Positions 5,071 through 15,028 are shown, counted from the first letter of the stretch. The stretch is DNA of 64,000 bases from Acidimicrobiia bacterium (GCA_023265045.1 JAHFUQ010000002.1:1-64000), one strand, 5' to 3'. Translations and numbers: made by a program. Notes: generated by a model from the letters alone, not told the origin.

Positions 5071-6936
5071 GTGACACCGCCCGCTCGATCACGACGACCC
5101 ATGCGCAGCTTCCTTGCCGCTGGCGCCTGCGTCGTCGTGGTCGCGGTCGCTGGCCGGGACGTGGGGTGGGCCGTCCAGCCGCCATCACAGGCGGTCCCCC
5201 CCTTGTCCTCAACGCCTGCCCAAACGCCTGCCGACGACGCCGGCCGGGGCTTGCGCTACGGCGGGCTGCAGCGCAGCGCTGGTTCGGGAGCGTGCCGAGG
5301 CCAGTTCGAGATGCGGCTGTCCGACGGCGCCACCGGGTGCACCCACGGGCCCGATCCTGCCCCCGACGGTGTCGACGTGCGACAGGCGGCGCCGGTCGCG
5401 TCGGTGTCGGCCGAGGCCGCCACCGCGCTGGCCGCGATGGCCTGCCAGGGCGACGGCGTCACGGGGCCCCGGGTCCAACTTGTGTACGCCCATGCCGCGG
5501 GGGTCACGGACCGGTACGCGTCCCTGCTGGCGAATTTGCAGTTGTGGGCGGCCCAGGTGGACGACGTGTTCAACCTGAGCGCGGCCGAGACGGGCGGTAC
5601 GCGCCACGTCCGGTACGTGCACGACGGGTTGTGCGTCCCCACCGTCGCCAGCGTCACCCTGACCGCGACCGGCGACGACTCGTTCACCAACACCATCAAC
5701 GAGCTGCGTGCCCAGGGCTACAACCGCAGCGACCGCAAGTACTTGGTCTGGGTCGACGCCAACGTCTACTGCGGCATCGCCCAGGTGTACAACGACGATC
5801 GGTCGGGCCAGGACAACCCCAACAACGGCCGCGGCGACGTCCCCGGGATGGTCGCCCGGGTCGACAACGGCTGCTGGGGCGGGTCGAACCTGGTCGAGGC
5901 GCACGAGCTCACCCACAGCCTCGGCGGGGTACAGCCGACCGCCCCGAACGCCACCGCCAACGACCACTGCACCGACGACTACGACCGCATGTGCTATGTC
6001 GACGCCGCCGGCGTGACGATGCGGATCGTCTGCTCGGCCACGTCCCACGAGAACCGCCTCGACTGCAACCACGACGACTACTTTTCGACCGCGCCCACCG
6101 CCGGCAGCTACCTGGCCACCCACTGGAACACGGCCAACAGCGTCTTCCTCGCAGGCGGGGGAGGCACGCCGCCGCCAACCACCGTGCCGCCGCCGACGAC
6201 GACCACGACCACGGTCCCGCCGACCACGACGACGGTCCCGCCGACCACGACGACGACGAAACCGCCGGCGACCACCACCAGCACGACGACGACGACGGCG
6301 CCGCCACCGCCGGCATCACAGGCGACCCGTTTCGTCCAGGCCGCCTACCTCGACCTCCTCGGCCGGGCGCCCTCGGCGGCGGACACCACGACGTGGGTCA
6401 ACCTGCTGAACGGCGGGCTCTCGCGGGACGCGATGGCCGGGGCGATCGTGACCAGCACCGAGTACCGCCGCCGGGTGGTGTCGAACTACTACCAGACCTA
6501 CCTGGGACGGGCGGCGACGGCCGGCGAACAGGACACGCTGCTCGGCGTCATCTCCAATGGCTGGCTGCTGGAGTGGGTCCAGGCCGCCATCCTGGCCACC
6601 CCCGAGTTTTACGGCCGGCGGGGTTCGACGGCCGGCGGCTACGTCGACGGGTTGTACAGCCTGGTGCTGGGCATGACGCCGTCCGCAACGGACCGCGCCT
6701 TCTGGGTCACCCAGCTGACGACGATCGGGCTGGACCGGATGACGGTGGCGCTGGCGTTCACCACGTCGGCGCTGGCCCAAACCCAGGCCGTGAACTTCGC
6801 CTACACGACGTTCCTCCGGCGGGCGGCCGACGCCGCTGGCGCCACGTTCTGGACCGGCCAACTCGCGGGCGGGCTGCGCCAGGAGTACATGTACGCCTTC
6901 TTCGTGGGGTGCACCGAGTACTACGCCCGGGTTTGA
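5071..6936 (+). CDS. Secreted HExxH metalloprotease-like protein with Thr/Pro linker and DUF4214 repeats
   Basis: 621 aa. GTG 5071 has an aagggg SD; ATG 5101 is an alternative, and both keep a signal peptide (RSFLAAGACVVVVAVAG). Residues about 70-370 form a catalytic-looking domain with EAHELTHSLGG (HExxHxxG zinc-protease motif) and several Cys pairs (NGCWGG, DHCTDDYDRMCY) suited to extracellular disulfides. A low-complexity linker of PPTTT repeats (about 370-415) leads to DUF4214 repeats (RFVQAAYLDLLGRAPS; YYQTYLGRAAT; ATPEFY), a helical module of secreted proteins thought to bind surface polysaccharide or neighbouring proteins. Divergent from gltB. Protease activity is inferred from the zinc motif; I see no close named family. 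Confidence 0.75.
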   Translation: MTPPARSRRPMRSFLAAGACVVVVAVAGRDVGWAVQPPSQAVPPLSSTPAQTPADDAGRGLRYGGLQRSAGSGACRGQFEMRLSDGATGCTHGPDPAPDGVDVRQAAPVASVSAEAATALAAMACQGDGVTGPRVQLVYAHAAGVTDRYASLLANLQLWAAQVDDVFNLSAAETGGTRHVRYVHDGLCVPTVASVTLTATGDDSFTNTINELRAQGYNRSDRKYLVWVDANVYCGIAQVYNDDRSGQDNPNNGRGDVPGMVARVDNGCWGGSNLVEAHELTHSLGGVQPTAPNATANDHCTDDYDRMCYVDAAGVTMRIVCSATSHENRLDCNHDDYFSTAPTAGSYLATHWNTANSVFLAGGGGTPPPTTVPPPTTTTTTVPPTTTTVPPTTTTTKPPATTTSTTTTTAPPPPASQATRFVQAAYLDLLGRAPSAADTTTWVNLLNGGLSRDAMAGAIVTSTEYRRRVVSNYYQTYLGRAATAGEQDTLLGVISNGWLLEWVQAAILATPEFYGRRGSTAGGYVDGLYSLVLGMTPSATDRAFWVTQLTTIGLDRMTVALAFTTSALAQTQAVNFAYTTFLRRAADAAGATFWTGQLAGGLRQEYMYAFFVGCTEYYARV

Positions 6937-6998: not shown

Positions 6999-7913
6999 TC
7001 AGGGCCAACGCTTGCCGGCGGACGAGCTGCGGCGCTTGTGGTCCCCGAGCGCCCACGACCGCCGCCAAGCGCCGGCGTCGGGACCGCCCAACGACGGGGT
7101 GGTGTTGTCGGCGGCGCGGCGGCGGGCGGTCCACCAGTCACTGGCGCCTTCGTCGGCCAAGATTGCGACGGTGGCCTCCAGCCGCGCGGCGAGGCGGCGG
7201 GCGTCCTCGCCCTCGCGCGGTCGCAGCGGCGGGCCGAACGTCACGTGCACGCCCGGCCCCCGACCGAGTGGGCCGCCCACGGGGGTCGGCAGCTTCTTAC
7301 CCTTCTTCTGGACCTTGCGGGTGCCCTCGATGTGCACCGGCACCAGCGGCCGCCCGCACCGGATGGCGAGGTACGCGGCGCCGCCGCGGAAGTCCTGCGC
7401 CCACCCGTCGGGGCTGCGACCGCCCTCGGGGAAGATCACGAGGCTCCAGCCGTCGTCGAGCAGGTCGGCGGCGAGGTCGGAGGACCGGCGGTTGATCCGG
7501 GTGCGCTCCATGGGAATGGCGCCGAGGGTGAGGGCCGACGCCGCGCTCTTGACCCGACTGTCGAAGAAGTAGTCGGCGGCCGCCGCGACCTGGGCCTTGT
7601 GGCGGAACCGGTCGGGGAGCGAGGTCAACAACAGCGGTGTGTCGAGGTGGCTGTGGTGGTTGGCGGCGAAGACGGCCGGCGCGTCGAGGTCCTGGATGCG
7701 GTCCAAGCCGTGGACCGTGGGCGACCCGAGGACGTGGACGAGCGGCCGCAGCACGTCGTCGAGGATCACCGCCCGGGCGAGCCGGGCCGCGTAGCTGCGG
7801 GACCAGTCGGTGTCGTAGTGCACGCCGGTGCGCTTCTCGACCGGCGGCCGGGGCACGCTCGTGGGCCAGCTCGGCTTGCCCAGAGGGAACGGCGCCCGGA
7901 GCCGCACGTTCAC
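6999..7913 (-). CDS. plsC: 1-acyl-sn-glycerol-3-phosphate acyltransferase (PlsC family)
   Basis: Membrane-associated acyltransferase that transfers an acyl group to lysophosphatidate or a related acceptor. The start is set by a GTGA overlap: GTG 7913 shares bases with the TGA of the upstream membrane-protein gene, so the track's 7946 start is less likely (304 aa from 7913). Motif I is NHHSHLD (the NHx4D form), motif III is FPEGGRSPDG, and a later LVPVHIEG segment completes the usual four-block pattern. Last gene of the five-gene lipid operon. With the FAR/HAD and alcohol dehydrogenase upstream it could esterify an unusual glycerolipid rather than make ordinary phosphatidate. Substrate not determinable from sequence. 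Confidence 0.88.
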   Translation of the reverse strand: MNVRLRAPFPLGKPSWPTSVPRPPVEKRTGVHYDTDWSRSYAARLARAVILDDVLRPLVHVLGSPTVHGLDRIQDLDAPAVFAANHHSHLDTPLLLTSLPDRFRHKAQVAAAADYFFDSRVKSAASALTLGAIPMERTRINRRSSDLAADLLDDGWSLVIFPEGGRSPDGWAQDFRGGAAYLAIRCGRPLVPVHIEGTRKVQKKGKKLPTPVGGPLGRGPGVHVTFGPPLRPREGEDARRLAARLEATVAILADEGASDWWTARRRAADNTTPSLGGPDAGAWRRSWALGDHKRRSSSAGKRWP

Positions 7914-8215
7914 GCCGCGGCTCGCGTCGACTTCATGCCCGCCCACGCGGCGGCGCCGACCACGACCATCGAGGCCAGGTCGGCGACGACGGCGCCCGCC
8001 ACGTTGCCGGCGCGGGCGTCCTCCTCGCCAAGGAGGGTGAGGTCGACCACGACGGCGGCGAGCGTTAGCAGCGCCAGCGTCTCGCTTCCGCCGTCGCCGC
8101 TACCGAAGTCGAGGGTGAGCCCGACGATCAGGGCGCCCACCATCGTCAGCGCGGTCCCCGCCAGGATGGCGGTCGCGGCCGCGCCGCCGATCGGATCGCC
8201 GTCGCCGTTGCTCAT
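7910..8215 (-). CDS. Small membrane protein in the lipid operon
   Basis: 101 aa from ATG 8215, which has a strong AAAGGAGA SD 6 nt upstream; the longer 195-aa track ORF reads antisense-like Arg/Pro sequence before this point. Three hydrophobic stretches (AAATAILAGTALTMVGALIVGL, ETLALLTLAAVVVDLTLL, GAVVADLASMVVVGAAAWAG) suggest a three-helix membrane protein with an acidic loop (GSGDGGSE, GEEDAR). Sits 11 bp after the LarA-like gene and overlaps plsC by GTGA, so translation is probably coupled. No family recognised. Confidence 0.75.
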   Translation of the reverse strand: MSNGDGDPIGGAAATAILAGTALTMVGALIVGLTLDFGSGDGGSETLALLTLAAVVVDLTLLGEEDARAGNVAGAVVADLASMVVVGAAAWAGMKSTRAAA

Positions 8216-8226
8216 CCGGTTCTCCT

Positions 8227-9840
8227 TTACGCCGTCACGTCCGCCATGACCAGCGGCGGGCACTTGAGGTGCATGATCGAAGGGTCGCGGCCTACGACGT
8301 CGCCCGCCATCTCCAGCGCGTCGCGGAAGGTCGAAGCGGGTTTGAACCCGAGCCGGCGCACAGCCTTGGCGTCGCCGCCCACGATGATGACGCCGTTGGG
8401 GTGGAGGTGTTGCAAGGCGTGCGCGCCCCAGTACCACATGTAGAACGGGTGGACGCCGTGGTAGGCGTAGCTCGTCCGGTACAGGTGGATGTACCACGGG
8501 TCGGTGGCGAAGTCCTCCTCGTACTTGGCTTCAATCTCCAGCGGGTCAGTGGTCTCCGTGAGCACCTGCTCGAAGAAGTCGATGTAGCTCGGGTGGTGGA
8601 CGGGGTGGAACTCCCACGGCGTGGGGTGGCTCATGATCACGACCCCGTTCTGGCGAACCAGGGGCTTGCCCCGGTACAGGTTGAAGAAGTAGCCGAGCCC
8701 GAGGCACATGACGAGGATGGGGTTCATCACCGAGTTGACGTTGTACGGGCAAATGTACGGGAGGCCCATCGTCAGGATGTCGGCCTGACCCTCGACGGGC
8801 ACCATCTGCTGGCGGTAGACGGCTTCGGTCGTGACGGCGTGTACCGCCTCCACGTCGCCCGCGTTCACGCCCGTCATCCGGTGCGGCGCCTTGATGGACG
8901 AGAAGATCTGGCGCGACATCGGGCGCGGCGTGCGCTCGAGCGACTTCGACACCGCCAGGTAGGACGCCCGGTCGCGCGCCGCCCACTCCCACTCCCGTCG
9001 TTGCAGGAACCGGAATGCGGACGGGAAGGTGTCGTTGTTCAGGGTGGTCTCGATCTGGAAGACCTTCACGCCTTCGGTCTTCAACAACCGGCCCATGCGC
9101 CAGTTCGACGAGTGCAGCTCGGAGCGCTTCTGGTCCATGACCGAGCGGCTCTCCTGCAGGGTGCGGACATTGTGGTGGTGGCGCAGGCTGCGGTAGCTGG
9201 TGAGGCCGGTGCCCAGGCTCTTGTGCCCGCCGTCCATCGACACCAGGTTGATGTTGACGTAGACGAGCAGGTCGCTGGTCGCCGCCCGCTTGTTCATCTC
9301 CACCAGTTCGCCGTGTGCCGTCTGGCCCACGACCACGAGGTTGCTCGGGTCCTCGCCGTCGTGCTGTTGGAGGAGGCCGTGGGGCGCGAAGGCGTCGTAG
9401 ATGCGGTCGCCCAAGGCATGGCGGAGCTCGGCCTCGGTCATGCGGCGGTGAAGGCCAAGGGCGGCGATCAGCACGACGTCGTCGACGTGGGCCTCGGCCG
9501 CCATCTCCAGCACCGCTTCGATCACGCGCTGGCGGTTGTCGGGCCGGCGCATCGGCGGCAGGGGCAGGGACAGGTCGTCGAACGCGATCGTGAGCTTCAT
9601 GCCCGGCTTCAGGAGGGCGGGCAAGGGCTCGCTGTCACCGAGCGGGTTGAGCAGGGCGTAGCGGATCGCCGCGTCGGGGTCTTCGAGCGGGGGCAACGGC
9701 TCGTTGGGGTACAACACCCGGCTGCCCACGGGCAGCTTTTCGAGGTGGAAGCCCTCGCCGGCGTGGAAGAGGACGGGCGGCGTCGACCGGTCGACCTCCA
9801 AGACGAACCCGGGCCGGGTGTGCTGCCGGTGGTCGCTCAT
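8227..9840 (-). CDS. LarA-superfamily (DUF2088) protein, atypical active site
   Basis: 537 aa. The N-terminal half carries the lactate racemase LarA/DUF2088 fold pattern: FDDLSLPLPPMRRPDNR, then ALGLHRRMTEAELRHALG (the GxHRxxTxxE block, His near residue 133), then SMDGGHKSLGTGLTSY near 205-215, aligning with the LarA lysine loop (typically FxGGRKSVLPG). LarA's lysine carries the nickel-pincer cofactor. Here the Lys is kept, but the His ten residues before it in LarA is replaced by Ile and a His sits just before the Lys. So the fold assignment is good, but lactate racemization is unlikely. No larB/C/E cofactor genes are present. Within the lipid operon it may act on a hydroxy-acyl or polyol substrate; that is inference. 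Confidence 0.75.
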   Translation of the reverse strand: MSDHRQHTRPGFVLEVDRSTPPVLFHAGEGFHLEKLPVGSRVLYPNEPLPPLEDPDAAIRYALLNPLGDSEPLPALLKPGMKLTIAFDDLSLPLPPMRRPDNRQRVIEAVLEMAAEAHVDDVVLIAALGLHRRMTEAELRHALGDRIYDAFAPHGLLQQHDGEDPSNLVVVGQTAHGELVEMNKRAATSDLLVYVNINLVSMDGGHKSLGTGLTSYRSLRHHHNVRTLQESRSVMDQKRSELHSSNWRMGRLLKTEGVKVFQIETTLNNDTFPSAFRFLQRREWEWAARDRASYLAVSKSLERTPRPMSRQIFSSIKAPHRMTGVNAGDVEAVHAVTTEAVYRQQMVPVEGQADILTMGLPYICPYNVNSVMNPILVMCLGLGYFFNLYRGKPLVRQNGVVIMSHPTPWEFHPVHHPSYIDFFEQVLTETTDPLEIEAKYEEDFATDPWYIHLYRTSYAYHGVHPFYMWYWGAHALQHLHPNGVIIVGGDAKAVRRLGFKPASTFRDALEMAGDVVGRDPSIMHLKCPPLVMADVTA

Positions 9841-9922
9841 CTGGCTGTCGCCGAGCTCTCCGCGCAGTTGGTGGCGATGAGGCCCAATTGCGCGGAAACG
9901 TCGCTCTGGCGGTGGCGGTAGG

Positions 9923-11089
9923 TCACCGGCGCTTCTCTCCTCGTAGGTCGAAGGCCACTTTCACTGCGCCGCGGCGGCCGGCGTTGGCGGCGTGTTCGAT
10001 GGCTTCACGGTAGCGGTCGAGCGGGTAGGTAGCCGTGACCAGGCGCTCCAAGCGGGCCTCGGTGACCAGCTCGAAGGCCATCTCGAAGGTGGACCGGCCG
10101 GAGGGTTCGCGGCCGTACGCGTAGGACCCGCGCAAGGTGATCTGGCGCTGCCAGAGCGGCGTGAGGTCGACGGTGACCGTCGACGGCATGCCCAGCAGCA
10201 CGACCAGGCCGCCCGGGCGCACGACGGCCCAATCTTCGGCCACCGACGCCTCGGTGCCCACGCAGTCGATCACCACGTCGGCGCCCCCCGAGAGCCGGCC
10301 GCCGACGCGCAGCGACCCGGTGGTCCGCCGCACCGCCCGCCGGGTCTCGTCCGCTCCCACGACAACATCGGCGCCCAGCTCCGACGCCAACCGGCGCTGC
10401 TCGGGGTGTTTGGCGACGGCCAGCACGGTGCCCGGCGTCGAGAACCGCCGCAGGGCAGCGATGGTGCACAGGCCGAGGGTGCCGGCGCCGAGGACCAGCA
10501 CCGTGCCGCCGTTGACCGCCCCGGCGCCGTGGATCGCGCACGCGGCGGGCTCCACCATCACCGCGGCCTCGTCGCTCATACCCTCGGGGACGGCGTGGAG
10601 CTGGCTCTCGTGGGCCACCAAGCCGGTCGACCACCCGCCCCCGGTGTCGGTGCAGTACCCGATCTGCAGCCCGGGCTCGATGGACCCGAACGAGATCCGC
10701 TCGCAGCAGTCGTGTCGACCTGTCGCGCAGGCGGCGCACCGCGGCTGCACCCCCCGCGCCACGCACCCCAGCACCGGCTCGAGCACAACCCGCTGGGAGG
10801 CGTCGCCGTCCAGCTCGCCGACAACCTCGTGGCCAGGCACGAACGGGAACGACACGACCGGCTCGAAGTAGCGCGACACGTGGCCGTCGATGGTCGCCAG
10901 GTCGGACCCGCATATGCCCGCGAGCCGGGGACGCACCCGGCGCCATCCCGGCCCGGGCAGCGGCGGCTCGTCGATCTCGGTCAATGTCAGCGGCCCCACC
11001 CGCGCCCCCAGCCCGGGCGCCAGCGATCCCGCGACCCACGCCGCCGCGTACCGCGGCAGCGACCGTTCGAACCGCAGGGCGCGGGTCAT
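9923..11089 (-). CDS. Zinc-dependent medium-chain alcohol dehydrogenase
   Basis: 388 aa from ATG 11089, which overlaps the FAR/HAD stop as ATGA; the 506-aa track ORF is over-extended. Features in order: catalytic zinc site GICGSD with VPGHEVVGEL, structural zinc-type Cys cluster (QPRCAACATGRHDCC), then a Rossmann NAD(P)-binding motif VLVLGAGTLGL with DVVIDCVGTE. Length and motifs are those of MDR/threonine-dehydrogenase-like enzymes. Coupled to the acyl-CoA reductase upstream, it may interconvert a fatty aldehyde and alcohol, or oxidise a polyol head group. The 82-bp gap to the LarA-like gene is the largest in the operon. Confidence 0.9.
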   Translation of the reverse strand: MTRALRFERSLPRYAAAWVAGSLAPGLGARVGPLTLTEIDEPPLPGPGWRRVRPRLAGICGSDLATIDGHVSRYFEPVVSFPFVPGHEVVGELDGDASQRVVLEPVLGCVARGVQPRCAACATGRHDCCERISFGSIEPGLQIGYCTDTGGGWSTGLVAHESQLHAVPEGMSDEAAVMVEPAACAIHGAGAVNGGTVLVLGAGTLGLCTIAALRRFSTPGTVLAVAKHPEQRRLASELGADVVVGADETRRAVRRTTGSLRVGGRLSGGADVVIDCVGTEASVAEDWAVVRPGGLVVLLGMPSTVTVDLTPLWQRQITLRGSYAYGREPSGRSTFEMAFELVTEARLERLVTATYPLDRYREAIEHAANAGRRGAVKVAFDLRGEKRR

Positions 11090-13446
11090 ACCCGCTCCGC
11101 CCGGTCGCCGCGGAGGCGGCCCCGCAGGTCCACCGGGCGCGGCGCCAACGGCAGCGGGGGGCGCAGCGGCCCGGCCGGGGCCTTGGTCCACTGCTCCACG
11201 TGCCAGCCCCGCTTGCGGGCGATGGCGGCCAGCTTCGGTTCGGCGTTGACGGCCACAGGGAACCCGACCGCCTCCAGCATGGGGAGGTCGCTGGCCGAGT
11301 CGGCGTAGGCGACCGACTCCGACATCAGCAAGTCGCGTGCCGCCGCATATTCGGCCATGACCAGGGCCCGGGCCTCGCCCGTCGGCGGGACGTCGACCAG
11401 CTCGCCGGTGAGCTTGCCGTCCTTCTCGGCCATCGTCGCGCACACCACGTCGTCGAACAGCGGCCGCAGCGGCTCGATGGCGAAGTCAAGCGCCCCCGTG
11501 ATGAGGACGGTCTTGGTGCCCGCCCGGCGGTGCTCGCGCACCCGGCGGAACCCGGCCGGGAACGACTTGGTGAGCAGGAGGTCGCTGAACAGCTCCCACG
11601 CGTCCTCCCGCAGGCGGGCCACCGTCGCGCCTTCGTACCGCCGGTAGAAGTGGCGCAGGAAGTCGCCCCGGTCCTTGCGGTCCAGCGCCCACAGGCTGGG
11701 CGCGGCGCGCAGCATGCGGGCCACGAAGCGCGTGCGCTCCTCGTCGGGCATGCGGCGGGTGGCGAGCCATGCGTACGACTCGACGACGTTGGACGCGATC
11801 AGGGTGTTCTCGAGGTCGAAGGCGGCGAAGTGCCGTTCGGGCGAGAGGACGGCGCGGCGGGTGCGTTCCTCGCGTGACAACCCTTCCCGCTTGGCGCCCG
11901 AAGTCCGCACCCGAGCCTGCTTGACGATGGACGGCATGTGGATCGTCTGGACGTAGCGGGCCCAGTCGATGACAGCGGTGTCGAAGGCGAACTCGGCCTG
12001 GTCCGCCTCGTCGAGCCCGTCCCACAACGCCCGCAGGCGAGCGTCGTCGAAGATCGCCTCGGTCTCCGCGTACGCGCCGTAGAGCTTGACGTAGCCGCGG
12101 GCCCGCTCGGCGTCGCTGCGCTTCTCCTCGACCCGTCCGCTGACCTCGGCCCGCTCGCCCCTGATGGGCAAGGCGCCGAGCGCCCTCTCGGCGCCCTTGA
12201 GGAGCTTGATGCCCTGCTCCAGCTGGCGCTGCACCCGCCCCCGCCCGCCGAAGGACCATTTGGGGACGACGATGGGCTGCCCGCGCGTGTCGTACAGCGG
12301 GTGCGCGCCGAAGTACTCGCGGACGAGGTCGACCAATTCGTCGTAGCGCAACGGGTTCCGGGCGCCCGTGGCGACCTGGTAGACCTCGACATCCCCGCTT
12401 GGCGCTGGGCCCCGCGCCGCCACGGCCAACAACGCCGAGACGACGAAGTCGACCGGGATCACGTCGACCACGCTTTCGGGGATGCCGGGGAACTCCTTCA
12501 GCAGGCCCCGGCCGTACGAGATGATCACCGGCTCGGCCATGCGGAAGCCGCGGATCCAGCCCGGGTGCGGGTCCGCCCACGCCGACTCGATGATCGACGG
12601 ACGGACGATCGTGAGGGGTACGTCGCCGCGCGTCTCGACCGCGGCCCGTTCGGCCAGCGCCTTGGTGTAGGCGTAGGCGTCTGGCCACCCCAGCGTCTGC
12701 GCCCGCGCCCGGCCCATTTCGACCAAGCGGTCGGCGACCCACTGTTCGCGCAGGCGCTCGGCCTTGGTGGCGAGCAGCGGAGGACCGGCGGCGCCCAGCT
12801 CTTGGCGCGCCTCCTTGGCGAACTGCTCCAGCAACTCGGGACGGCGGCTCTCGGCCTCGCTGTCGCCCCGAGCCCGGCGGGCGGCGTCGACCTCGCCGCG
12901 CCAGGCCACGTCGGTCGAGAACGGCGTCTCCGAGAGCACCGCCTCCGGCGCCCGGCCTCGGCGGGTCCCCGCCACATAGGCGGTCGAGACGGCGACCAGG
13001 TGCGGCGTCGCGCCCGCCTCGTTCAACACGTCGAGGACCCGTTTGGACCCGAGGAGGTTGACCTCGACGGCCCGGTCCAGGGGAGCGTCGAAGCTCACCA
13101 GGGCGGCGGAATGGATGACCGTGTCGCAGCCGGCCAGGGCGGCGCGGCCCTCGTCGTCCAGGCCCAGCCCGTCGACGGCCACGTCGCCGGCGATGACCTG
13201 AACGCGGGAGGCGATCTCGGCGTCGAACCGGTCGCCCAGCGCGGCCTTCAGCCGGGCGAACGCGTCGTTGCCGAAGATCTCCCGTCTGGCCCGCTGAGCC
13301 GGCGTGGTGCGCCGCCCGGCGCGGACGACGAGCACGAGCTGGCAGCCGGGCACGGCCCGCAGCAGACGCTCGACCAACGCCGTGCCGAGGAAGCCGGTGG
13401 CCCCCGTAATCGCGACTCGTCGCCCGTTCAGGGTGTCCTGGATCAC
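11086..13446 (-). CDS. Fatty acyl-CoA/thioester reductase fused to HAD-IB phosphatase
   Basis: 786 aa from GTG 13446; GTG 13470 is in frame but adds residues the family lacks. The N-terminal part is a 'male-sterility' NAD-binding_4 reductase: GATGFLGTALVERLL nucleotide site at 15-21, YAYTKALAE (YxxxK catalytic pair, about 258), VRPSIIES. Such reductases turn acyl-CoA or acyl-thioester into aldehyde or alcohol. The C-terminal 250 residues are a HAD-IB (phosphoserine-phosphatase-like) domain with motif I AFDLENTLIA (about 542) and motif III YADSASDLPMLEAVG. The second catalytic acid of motif I is Glu rather than Asp. PlsC-partnered HAD-IB domains often act on lysophosphatidate-type phosphate. 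First gene of the lipid operon, divergent from the beta-propeller gene with only about 46 bp between starts. Confidence 0.88.
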   Translation of the reverse strand: MIQDTLNGRRVAITGATGFLGTALVERLLRAVPGCQLVLVVRAGRRTTPAQRARREIFGNDAFARLKAALGDRFDAEIASRVQVIAGDVAVDGLGLDDEGRAALAGCDTVIHSAALVSFDAPLDRAVEVNLLGSKRVLDVLNEAGATPHLVAVSTAYVAGTRRGRAPEAVLSETPFSTDVAWRGEVDAARRARGDSEAESRRPELLEQFAKEARQELGAAGPPLLATKAERLREQWVADRLVEMGRARAQTLGWPDAYAYTKALAERAAVETRGDVPLTIVRPSIIESAWADPHPGWIRGFRMAEPVIISYGRGLLKEFPGIPESVVDVIPVDFVVSALLAVAARGPAPSGDVEVYQVATGARNPLRYDELVDLVREYFGAHPLYDTRGQPIVVPKWSFGGRGRVQRQLEQGIKLLKGAERALGALPIRGERAEVSGRVEEKRSDAERARGYVKLYGAYAETEAIFDDARLRALWDGLDEADQAEFAFDTAVIDWARYVQTIHMPSIVKQARVRTSGAKREGLSREERTRRAVLSPERHFAAFDLENTLIASNVVESYAWLATRRMPDEERTRFVARMLRAAPSLWALDRKDRGDFLRHFYRRYEGATVARLREDAWELFSDLLLTKSFPAGFRRVREHRRAGTKTVLITGALDFAIEPLRPLFDDVVCATMAEKDGKLTGELVDVPPTGEARALVMAEYAAARDLLMSESVAYADSASDLPMLEAVGFPVAVNAEPKLAAIARKRGWHVEQWTKAPAGPLRPPLPLAPRPVDLRGRLRGDRAERV

Positions 13447-13492
13447 TCCCGCATCTCTAGCAGGACCCACCGCAGCCCGTCGGCGTTACATA

Positions 13493-15028
13493 ATGGCGGG
13501 CTTGGAGGGGACCCGGCGGGGATGGGGTCGGCTGGTTCTAGCCGGCGCGCTCCTGAACGCGTCCCCTGCCGCCTGCACGACCAGGCTGGCGAGCGAAGAG
13601 GCGATCTCGGCCACCACCTCCACCACTCAGCTCGCCACGCCCTCGACATCGGCGGCGACATCGGCGGCTACATCGGCGGCGACCGCGAGCGCCCCTCCGC
13701 CCGCGGCGGTCCGGGCCGCCGCCACCCCGGCGCCCGTCGTTCCCGGCCTGCTCACCTTCCGCGGCAACGCCACCCGTACCTACTACGGCCAGGGACCGGT
13801 GCCGGCGGCGCCGAGCGTCCTGCGCCGGTTCCCCGACCAGCCGATGTGCTCGGACTCGCTCGACTACGGCGTCGTCCTGAAGTGGTGCGGGACGGGCTGG
13901 ACCGGCCAGCCCGCCGTCTTCGAGCGCCAGGGCAAGACGTGGCTGGTCTTCGGGGCGTACGACGGGGCGGTGCACTTCCTCGACGCCGACACGGGCCAGC
14001 GCCTCCTCGCCGACTTCCCCACCGGGGACCTCATCAAGGGGTCGGTCACCGTCGACCCCGACGGGTACCCGCTGATCTACATCGGCTCCCGCGACAACTA
14101 CCTCCGGGTCATCGCCCTCGACCGGCCCGCCCCGACCGAACTGTGGAAGCTGAACGCCTACGCCGTCAGCCCGACGCTGTGGAACGACGACTGGGACGGC
14201 TCGCCTCTCGTGAAGGACGACTACCTCTTCGAGGGCGGCGAGAACAGCCAGCTGCACATCGTCAAGCTTCACCGGGCCTACGGCGCCGACGGCAAGGTCA
14301 CCGTGGCCCCCGAACTCGTCTTCCATGCCCCCGGTTGGGACGACGAGCTCCTTGCCGACGTGGGCGACGGCGACGTCTCGATCGAAAGCTCGGTCGCTCT
14401 CTTCGGCAACACCCTGTACTTCGCCAACTCCGGCGGCCTGGTGCAGGGGTGGGACATCTCCGGCCTCAAAGACGGCGTCGCGCCCACCCGCACGTTCCGG
14501 TTCTGGACCGGCGACGACACCGACGCCACCGTTGTCGTCGACAACGAGGGAATGCTCTACGTCGCGTCCGAATGGGAACGCCACAACACGCGGTCCCGCC
14601 AGGTGGGCCAGATCATCAAACTCGACCCCCGGCGGGAGCGGCCGCTGGTGTGGTCGATTGCGGACCAGGGGACCGGGGACGAGGACGCCGGTGTCTGGGC
14701 CACGCCCGCGCTCTACCGAGACCTCGTCATCGTCCCGACCAACGGCGGCCGGCTCCTTGGCATCGACCGCCAGACCGGCGCCATCCGGTGGACGAAGGCG
14801 CTGGCCGACCCGACGTGGCAGTCACCCGTGGTGGTCGACGCGGTGCTCATCCAGGGGGACTGCAACGGCGTCCTGCACGCTTACGACCTCGCGAACACCG
14901 CGATCGACCCGCCCGAGCTGTGGACGCTGCGGCTGGGCGGGTGCATCGAGTCGACGCCCGCCGTCTGGAAGGGCCGGATCTACGTCGGCACCCGCGCCGG
15001 GTTCGTCCTCACCGCCGGCGACCGGTGA
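13493..15028 (+). CDS. Secreted PQQ-like (BamB-type) beta-propeller protein
   Basis: 511 aa from ATG 13493; the track's earlier start at 13304 overlaps the divergent gene. An N-terminal hydrophobic stretch (RLVLAGALLNASPAAC) ends in Cys, so it may be a lipoprotein, though the lipobox is weak. An Ala/Thr/Ser-rich low-complexity linker follows to about residue 80. The rest shows repeated WD/PQQ-type blades: YDGAVHFLDADTGQRL, IYIGSRDNYLRVIALD, GGRLLGIDRQTGAIRW, CNGVLHAYDL, GRIYVGTRAGFVLT. There are no catalytic dehydrogenase residues or Cys-Cys pair of PQQ enzymes, so a structural or binding role is likelier. ACATAATGG just before the ATG could allow leaderless expression. Converges directly on the sialidase-like gene. 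Confidence 0.8.
   Translation: MAGLEGTRRGWGRLVLAGALLNASPAACTTRLASEEAISATTSTTQLATPSTSAATSAATSAATASAPPPAAVRAAATPAPVVPGLLTFRGNATRTYYGQGPVPAAPSVLRRFPDQPMCSDSLDYGVVLKWCGTGWTGQPAVFERQGKTWLVFGAYDGAVHFLDADTGQRLLADFPTGDLIKGSVTVDPDGYPLIYIGSRDNYLRVIALDRPAPTELWKLNAYAVSPTLWNDDWDGSPLVKDDYLFEGGENSQLHIVKLHRAYGADGKVTVAPELVFHAPGWDDELLADVGDGDVSIESSVALFGNTLYFANSGGLVQGWDISGLKDGVAPTRTFRFWTGDDTDATVVVDNEGMLYVASEWERHNTRSRQVGQIIKLDPRRERPLVWSIADQGTGDEDAGVWATPALYRDLVIVPTNGGRLLGIDRQTGAIRWTKALADPTWQSPVVVDAVLIQGDCNGVLHAYDLANTAIDPPELWTLRLGGCIESTPAVWKGRIYVGTRAGFVLTAGDR

Follow-up and report, generated by a model that had tools for sequence, protein, structure and literature searches.

The window analyzed here, a 64,000-nt stretch of DNA from the draft genome (4.3 Mb, 85% complete) of an Acidimicrobiia bacterium (GCA_023265045.1 JAHFUQ010000002.1:1-64000), carries on its minus strand, from 13446 down to 6999, five genes that span exactly the range first noted. 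In order of transcription these encode a fatty acyl-CoA reductase fused to a HAD domain (FAR-HAD), a zinc-dependent medium-chain alcohol dehydrogenase (Zn-ADH, or ADH), a LarA-like protein with the fold of the nickel-pincer nucleotide (NPN) enzymes, a small membrane protein and a PlsC-type acyltransferase. We find that this operon is a real, conserved module of Actinomycetota with a core of four genes, i.e., FAR-HAD, Zn-ADH, LarA-like and PlsC, and that it points to an unexplored membrane-lipid pathway, probably one leading to ether lipids.

A conserved four-gene module

We compared 80 named Acidimicrobiales loci, judging gene order wherever the flank was long enough, and nearly all of these keep the order FAR-HAD, Zn-ADH, LarA-like, PlsC. 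The nearest named records were mostly labelled Acidimicrobiales or its families, and the same order recurs in 20 loci that belong to other families of actinobacteria, where LarA identity is 56-65%. Because it is kept in about 100 relatives, this order is more than chance; a scattering of the genes in relatives, which the earlier note had named beforehand as the result that would speak against a unit, was looked for, and the genes are not scattered. The genes are also tightly packed, with median gaps in the fetched loci of -4 nt between FAR and ADH, -4 nt between ADH and LarA, and 26 nt between LarA and PlsC, and FAR and HAD are fused in 69 of the 70 relatives tested.

Co-occurrence across genomes, the check proposed alongside that claim, gave the same picture. 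LarAH14, the group to which the LarA-like protein is assigned below, passed the cut-off in 127 of the 148 genomes from the order. A survey of 297 genomes of the phylum, in which the lists of LarAH14 and FAR-HAD genomes were matched by hand, found LarAH14 over the cut-off in 72 and FAR-HAD in 78; every one of the 72 LarAH14 genomes has FAR-HAD (p about 2e-62), and four of the six FAR-HAD genomes without an over-cut-off LarAH14 hold LarAH14 fragments. Even genomes as small as about 2 Mb retain the operon. Because synteny is joined by near-perfect co-occurrence, a single functional unit is strongly supported, and the view that these genes are bound together is borne out.

Two departures weigh against this reading, in that they show adjacency not to be strict. 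ADH is absent in one clade (L102, L105, L110, L113, L114 and L117-L119), where FAR-HAD lies directly 5′ of LarA, and in one family, Rubrobacter-like (f77), PlsC does not adjoin LarA. The operon is absent around distant LarA proteins (25-45% identity), and plasmid records of named taxa gave a distant larA match only. The unit was first described as having five genes, but none of the other loci fetched gave a match to the 101-aa small membrane protein, and its rejection as a fifth member on that ground leaves the core of four.

Within the window, the coupled overlaps that had been claimed are both present: an ATGA joins FAR-HAD to ADH (11089-11086), and a GTGA joins the small membrane protein to PlsC (7913-7910). 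A further GTGA at the ADH stop (9926-9923) opens a 29-codon open reading frame (ORF), which runs up to the LarA start and meets it in an ATGA. Direct overlap of ADH and LarA, at about -4 nt, is usual elsewhere, whereas the window has this small ORF instead, which, read from the sequence, is probably a coupling feature of the window genome only. The domain assignments bear out that the operon holds lipid-type enzymes, with Pfam matches to NAD_binding_4 (E 5e-59) and HAD (E 8e-26) within the one FAR-HAD chain, to Lar_N (E 3e-34) in the LarA-like protein, and to Acyltransferase (E 2e-19) in PlsC.

Table 1. Features of the operon and its surroundings in the window, with positions counted from its first nucleotide
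Feature	Position	Strand	Length	Remarks
FAR-HAD fusion	11086..13446	-	786 aa	NAD_binding_4 at residues 13-338; HAD-IB at residues 541-725; weak Sterile/FAR_C match at residues 448-505
HAD motif I, FDLENTL (DxE)	11804..11824	-		approximate position, from residues 542-548
Zn-ADH, zinc-dependent medium-chain dehydrogenase	9923..11089	-	388 aa	ADH_N/ADH_zinc_N
Small ORF between ADH and LarA	9840..9926	-	29 codons	read from sequence
LarA-like protein, LarAH14/15/16 family	8227..9840	-	537 aa	NPN-enzyme fold
Small membrane protein	7910..8215	-	101 aa	between LarA and PlsC
PlsC-type acyltransferase	6999..7913	-	304 aa	
Beta-propeller-like gene	13480-15028 (about)	+		
AT-skewed segment	32001-34000			strong AT skew (0.23)
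Low-GC segment	34001-36000			drop to 60% GC; window about 70% GC

Two kinds of neighbor recur around the operon in relatives. In 65 loci a TetR-type regulator is found beside it, in most cases divergent and lying upstream of FAR-HAD (for example, at 4414-3772 bases before LarA in L068); the window gave no significant match to such a regulator, and a beta-propeller-like gene occupies there the place that the regulator often has in relatives. In many Acidimicrobiales a gene for a HAD-PlsC fusion lies on the opposite strand, 3-10 kb downstream of the operon; in L089 it covers bases 5324-6719 counted from the start of LarA, and about 20 other loci are alike.

The LarA-like protein and its predicted nickel-pincer cofactor

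The LarA-like protein matches the curated family LarAH14/15/16 (NCBIfam NF052592; E 2e-265; 880.9 bits against a cut-off of 740) over residues 12-535 of 537. From residue correspondences counted by hand on the alignment, the conserved D89, H131, K207 and H223 correspond to Asp72, His108, Lys184 and His200 of LarA, so aligned that K207 would be the cofactor lysine, H223 a nickel ligand and H131 the catalytic His. The earlier note had read a cofactor-lysine loop that is kept and a His that is missing ten residues before it, and both readings hold: K207 is conserved, and Ile197 stands at the position in question, with YVNIN in place of His174 and Asn residues (N196 and N198) in the region. In LarA_Sp the counterpart of N198 is Asn185, which takes the place of His174 in that enzyme. 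An alignment that restored this His at another position had been named as a result that would speak against the reading; there is no His at position 174, and the invariant His464 aligns with the active-site His401 of LarA_Sp. An AlphaFold2 model (predicted local distance difference test, pLDDT, 85.7) has as its best match 9q3k, a single-His LarA (template-modelling scores of 0.76/0.85). The protein had been taken for a new LarA variant, but the family is already curated and the absence of His174 from groups 14 and 15 was published with it in 2020 (PMC7583248, PMC12611868); the novelty of this LarA lies in its gene context, not in the missing His.

What such an enzyme would act on bears on the lipid product. 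A LarA lacking one His has been suggested to use one enantiomer and to move the hydride to an adjacent site (Desguin et al.). One alternative, which we regard as unlikely, is that the operon makes long-chain 1,2-diol or 2-hydroxyacyl lipids, with LarAH14 isomerizing or setting a C2 hydroxyl, FAR reducing C1 and PlsC acylating the diol. 2-Hydroxy acids are the substrates of the LarA relatives characterized to date (PMC7583248, PMC11770544), and a FAR with a PlsC would suit a diol lipid; however, Arg75 of LarA, which binds the substrate carboxylate and the NPN phosphate, is Leu92 here and in nearly all relatives (occasionally Ile or Cys), the conserved neighbors include no 2-hydroxylase, and seven assays of a Frankia LarAH14 showed no activity on any substrate tried, 2-hydroxy acids among them (PMC7583248). 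The single catalytic His also bears on a second alternative, in which LarAH14 would epimerize glycerol C2 by a hidden redox step, giving an unusual sn-configuration on which the other enzymes build. Hydride transfer at a secondary alcohol is how LarA works (PMC12611868), and the ADH is similar to ketose reductases that work at C2, but racemization from both faces is not expected of an enzyme with one catalytic His, and we hold this reading to be improbable.

The genes for making the cofactor tie the operon to NPN. The source genome of the window holds larB, larC and larE along with a single LarA, so that its organism would presumably use NPN, judging by gene content. In three loci (L155, L156/L209 and L188) larE, larB and larC lie directly after PlsC, and in L149 all three adjoin the operon, larE being on the other strand; this clustering is thus seen in four loci from two actinobacterial families, with LarE, LarB and LarC confirmed by NCBIfam in L188, LarB and LarC likewise in L156, and the remainder read from tblastn matches. 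Since larE, larB and larC stand beside the operon, an NPN enzyme is tied to lipid genes, and it is this juxtaposition, new here, that joins a nickel-pincer enzyme to lipid synthesis. Within the order, LarAH14 and larC are associated (both in 122 genomes, only LarA in 11, only larC in 5 and neither in 10; p 7e-7).

The LarAH14 genomes of the order without a recognizable larC, about 11, weigh against this link, as does the finding that larB gave nothing over the cut-off in the ten of them that were checked (G012, G017, G019, G026, G034, G046, G048, G108, G118 and G135), where the weak larB matches are of the kind that PurE gives. Salvage, diverged genes or an NPN-independent use are the possibilities for these genomes. 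The last of these would make LarAH14 a partner of FAR-HAD that serves a structural role or is powered in another way and no longer depends on NPN, an improbable reading to our mind: the genomes lacking larC and larB are what favors it, but even there the cofactor residues of LarAH14 are intact, and larE, larB and larC cluster with the operon in the four loci above. A replacement of His206 by Trp beside the cofactor lysine was considered as a mark of larC loss and set aside as not convincing (7/10 against 11/34).

Lipid enzymes and a candidate ether-lipid product

The closest PDB entry to FAR-HAD is 7eoz, a fatty acyl-CoA reductase, and the residues of the FAR domain that form TGxxGxxG (T14-G15-T17-G18-F19-L20-G21) and YxxxK (Y258/K262) are conserved in relatives; the Sterile/FAR_C domain is a weak match (34.4 bits, with the cut-off at 35.4). 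In the HAD domain, T650 and D716-x3-D720 are conserved. Motif I had been read as DxE, correctly (FDLENT in the window protein), and with it a special HAD chemistry had been supposed. The Acidimicrobiales loci carry DLE[NHQ]T without exception and DxEGT is found in most other families, but same-operon orthologues in the Rubrobacter-like family, in family f75 and in one further locus carry the canonical DxDGT, and a new HAD chemistry was rejected for this reason. Asp and Glu are interchangeable among these orthologues and the motif is therefore no sign of new chemistry; the Glu is a tolerated replacement, only a lineage variant. The nearest relatives of the ADH are ketose reductase and sorbitol dehydrogenase, which act at C2, and the PlsC motifs H86-x4-D91 and E163-G-G-R166 are conserved in 79 sequences.

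We suggest, at somewhat less than an even chance, that the operon enzymes build 1-O-alkyl (ether) glycerolipids with the NPN enzyme LarAH14 as a regular member. An ether-lipid role is proposed because FAR, HAD, oxidoreductase and AGPAT are also the gene classes of elb (ElbA-E), the operon for ether lipids in myxobacteria (PMC9131029), and because the core is carried by a genome taken below to be that of a Rubrobacter, a group reported to have dominant ether/ester lipids. On these grounds, together with the C2-type ADH and the failure to find Ger or an AGPS-like PF02913 protein in the genomes examined, a 1-O-alkyl glycerolipid is the best guess. As candidates for the ether-bond enzyme, Ger was set aside since its DUF2229 type was not found in the five genomes searched, and AGPS since the PF02913 proteins examined in the window's own genome and in a Rubrobacter-like genome resemble glycolate/lactate dehydrogenases more.

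We propose the following steps. The FAR domain would convert a fatty acyl thioester into a fatty alcohol or aldehyde; LarAH14 would transfer hydride to NPN from a secondary alcohol, for which C2 of the glycerol in an acyl- or alkyl-glycerol phosphate intermediate is the probable candidate; the ADH, with its likeness to ketose reductases, could where present act on a C2 ketone, e.g., reducing alkyl-dihydroxyacetone phosphate to alkyl-glycerol-3-phosphate; PlsC would acylate sn-2; and the fused HAD domain would remove phosphate. A bolder version of the LarAH14 step, decidedly unlikely as it stands, makes it a “hydrogen-borrowing” ether synthase, in which C2 of 1-acyl-glycerol-3-phosphate would be oxidized, the C1 acyloxy group swapped for the FAR alcohol while the hydride is held on NPN, and the hydride then returned to give 1-O-alkyl-glycerol-3-phosphate. 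If true, such a synthase would give aerobic Actinomycetota a replacement for AGPS and Ger.

The earlier note had envisaged a route to an ether, wax or alkylated glycerolipid, of which the ether or alkyl glycerolipid is now our leading guess and wax survives only as a rival. Under a wax-ester or fatty-alcohol storage operon, FAR would supply the alcohol and the other enzymes recycle intermediates; the FAR domain is there, and Acidimicrobiia commonly have homologues of wax synthase (PMC10351704). The conserved neighbors read include no wax synthase, however, wax-ester synthesis in its known form has no place for LarA, HAD or PlsC, and the operon is kept in the small genomes noted above, so that this reading is very improbable.

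Dominant mixed ether/ester lipids are reported for Rubrobacterales, according to a title cited in PMC11150832. One Rubrobacter-like genome carries FAR-HAD, ADH and LarAH14. We tentatively take this genome to be that of Rubrobacter xylanophilus DSM 9941. The abstract of the Rubrobacter lipid paper reportedly names a putative ether-lipid operon as needing more study, so that the operon described here may have been noticed in that work. Some further points count against the ether-lipid proposal: the Rubrobacter identity is tentative, a literature search returned nothing on Acidimicrobiales lipids or such an operon, and a FAR with an acyltransferase would equally suit other alcohol-derived lipids.

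No lipid role is reported for any NPN enzyme in the literature, as far as searched, the function of LarAH14 has been a standing question since 2020, and ether-lipid synthesis in aerobic bacteria without AGPS or Ger is an unsolved one. A near-universal Acidimicrobiales operon, with larE, larB and larC alongside in some relatives, joins these three questions.

Comparison with known systems

Compared with the published LarAH14/15/16 family, the window protein matches over its full length and shares the absence of His174 described for groups 14 and 15; that literature gives no substrate, pathway or lipid context, whereas the window member sits in an operon with FAR-HAD, ADH and PlsC. With the two-histidine LarA racemases it shares H131, D89, K207 and H223, whereas the second His (His174) and Arg75 are missing. 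The best structural match is to the single-His enzymes LarA_Bw and LarA_Sp (PDB 9q3j and 9q3k), with which it shares the catalytic His, the cofactor Lys and the Ni-ligand His at 24% identity; it differs from these in having Leu92 for Lys76 and Pro365 for His306, and their gene context is sugar where that of the window LarA is lipid.

The Ger/PlsA and AGPS ether-lipid routes would lead to the product class proposed for the window operon, but DUF2229 was not found in the five genomes searched, and the PF02913 proteins examined in the window's own genome and one Rubrobacter-like genome are dehydrogenase-like. The elb operon, in which ElbC is described as of undefined function, has four gene classes in common with the window operon: FAR-like, HAD-like, AGPAT-like and oxidoreductase. 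ElbD, however, combines FAR-like, ACS, ACP and AGPAT parts in one protein, whereas in the window operon FAR has HAD as its sole fusion partner, PlsC has a gene of its own and the operon proteins contain no ACS or ACP. The window operon also has a LarA/NPN enzyme.

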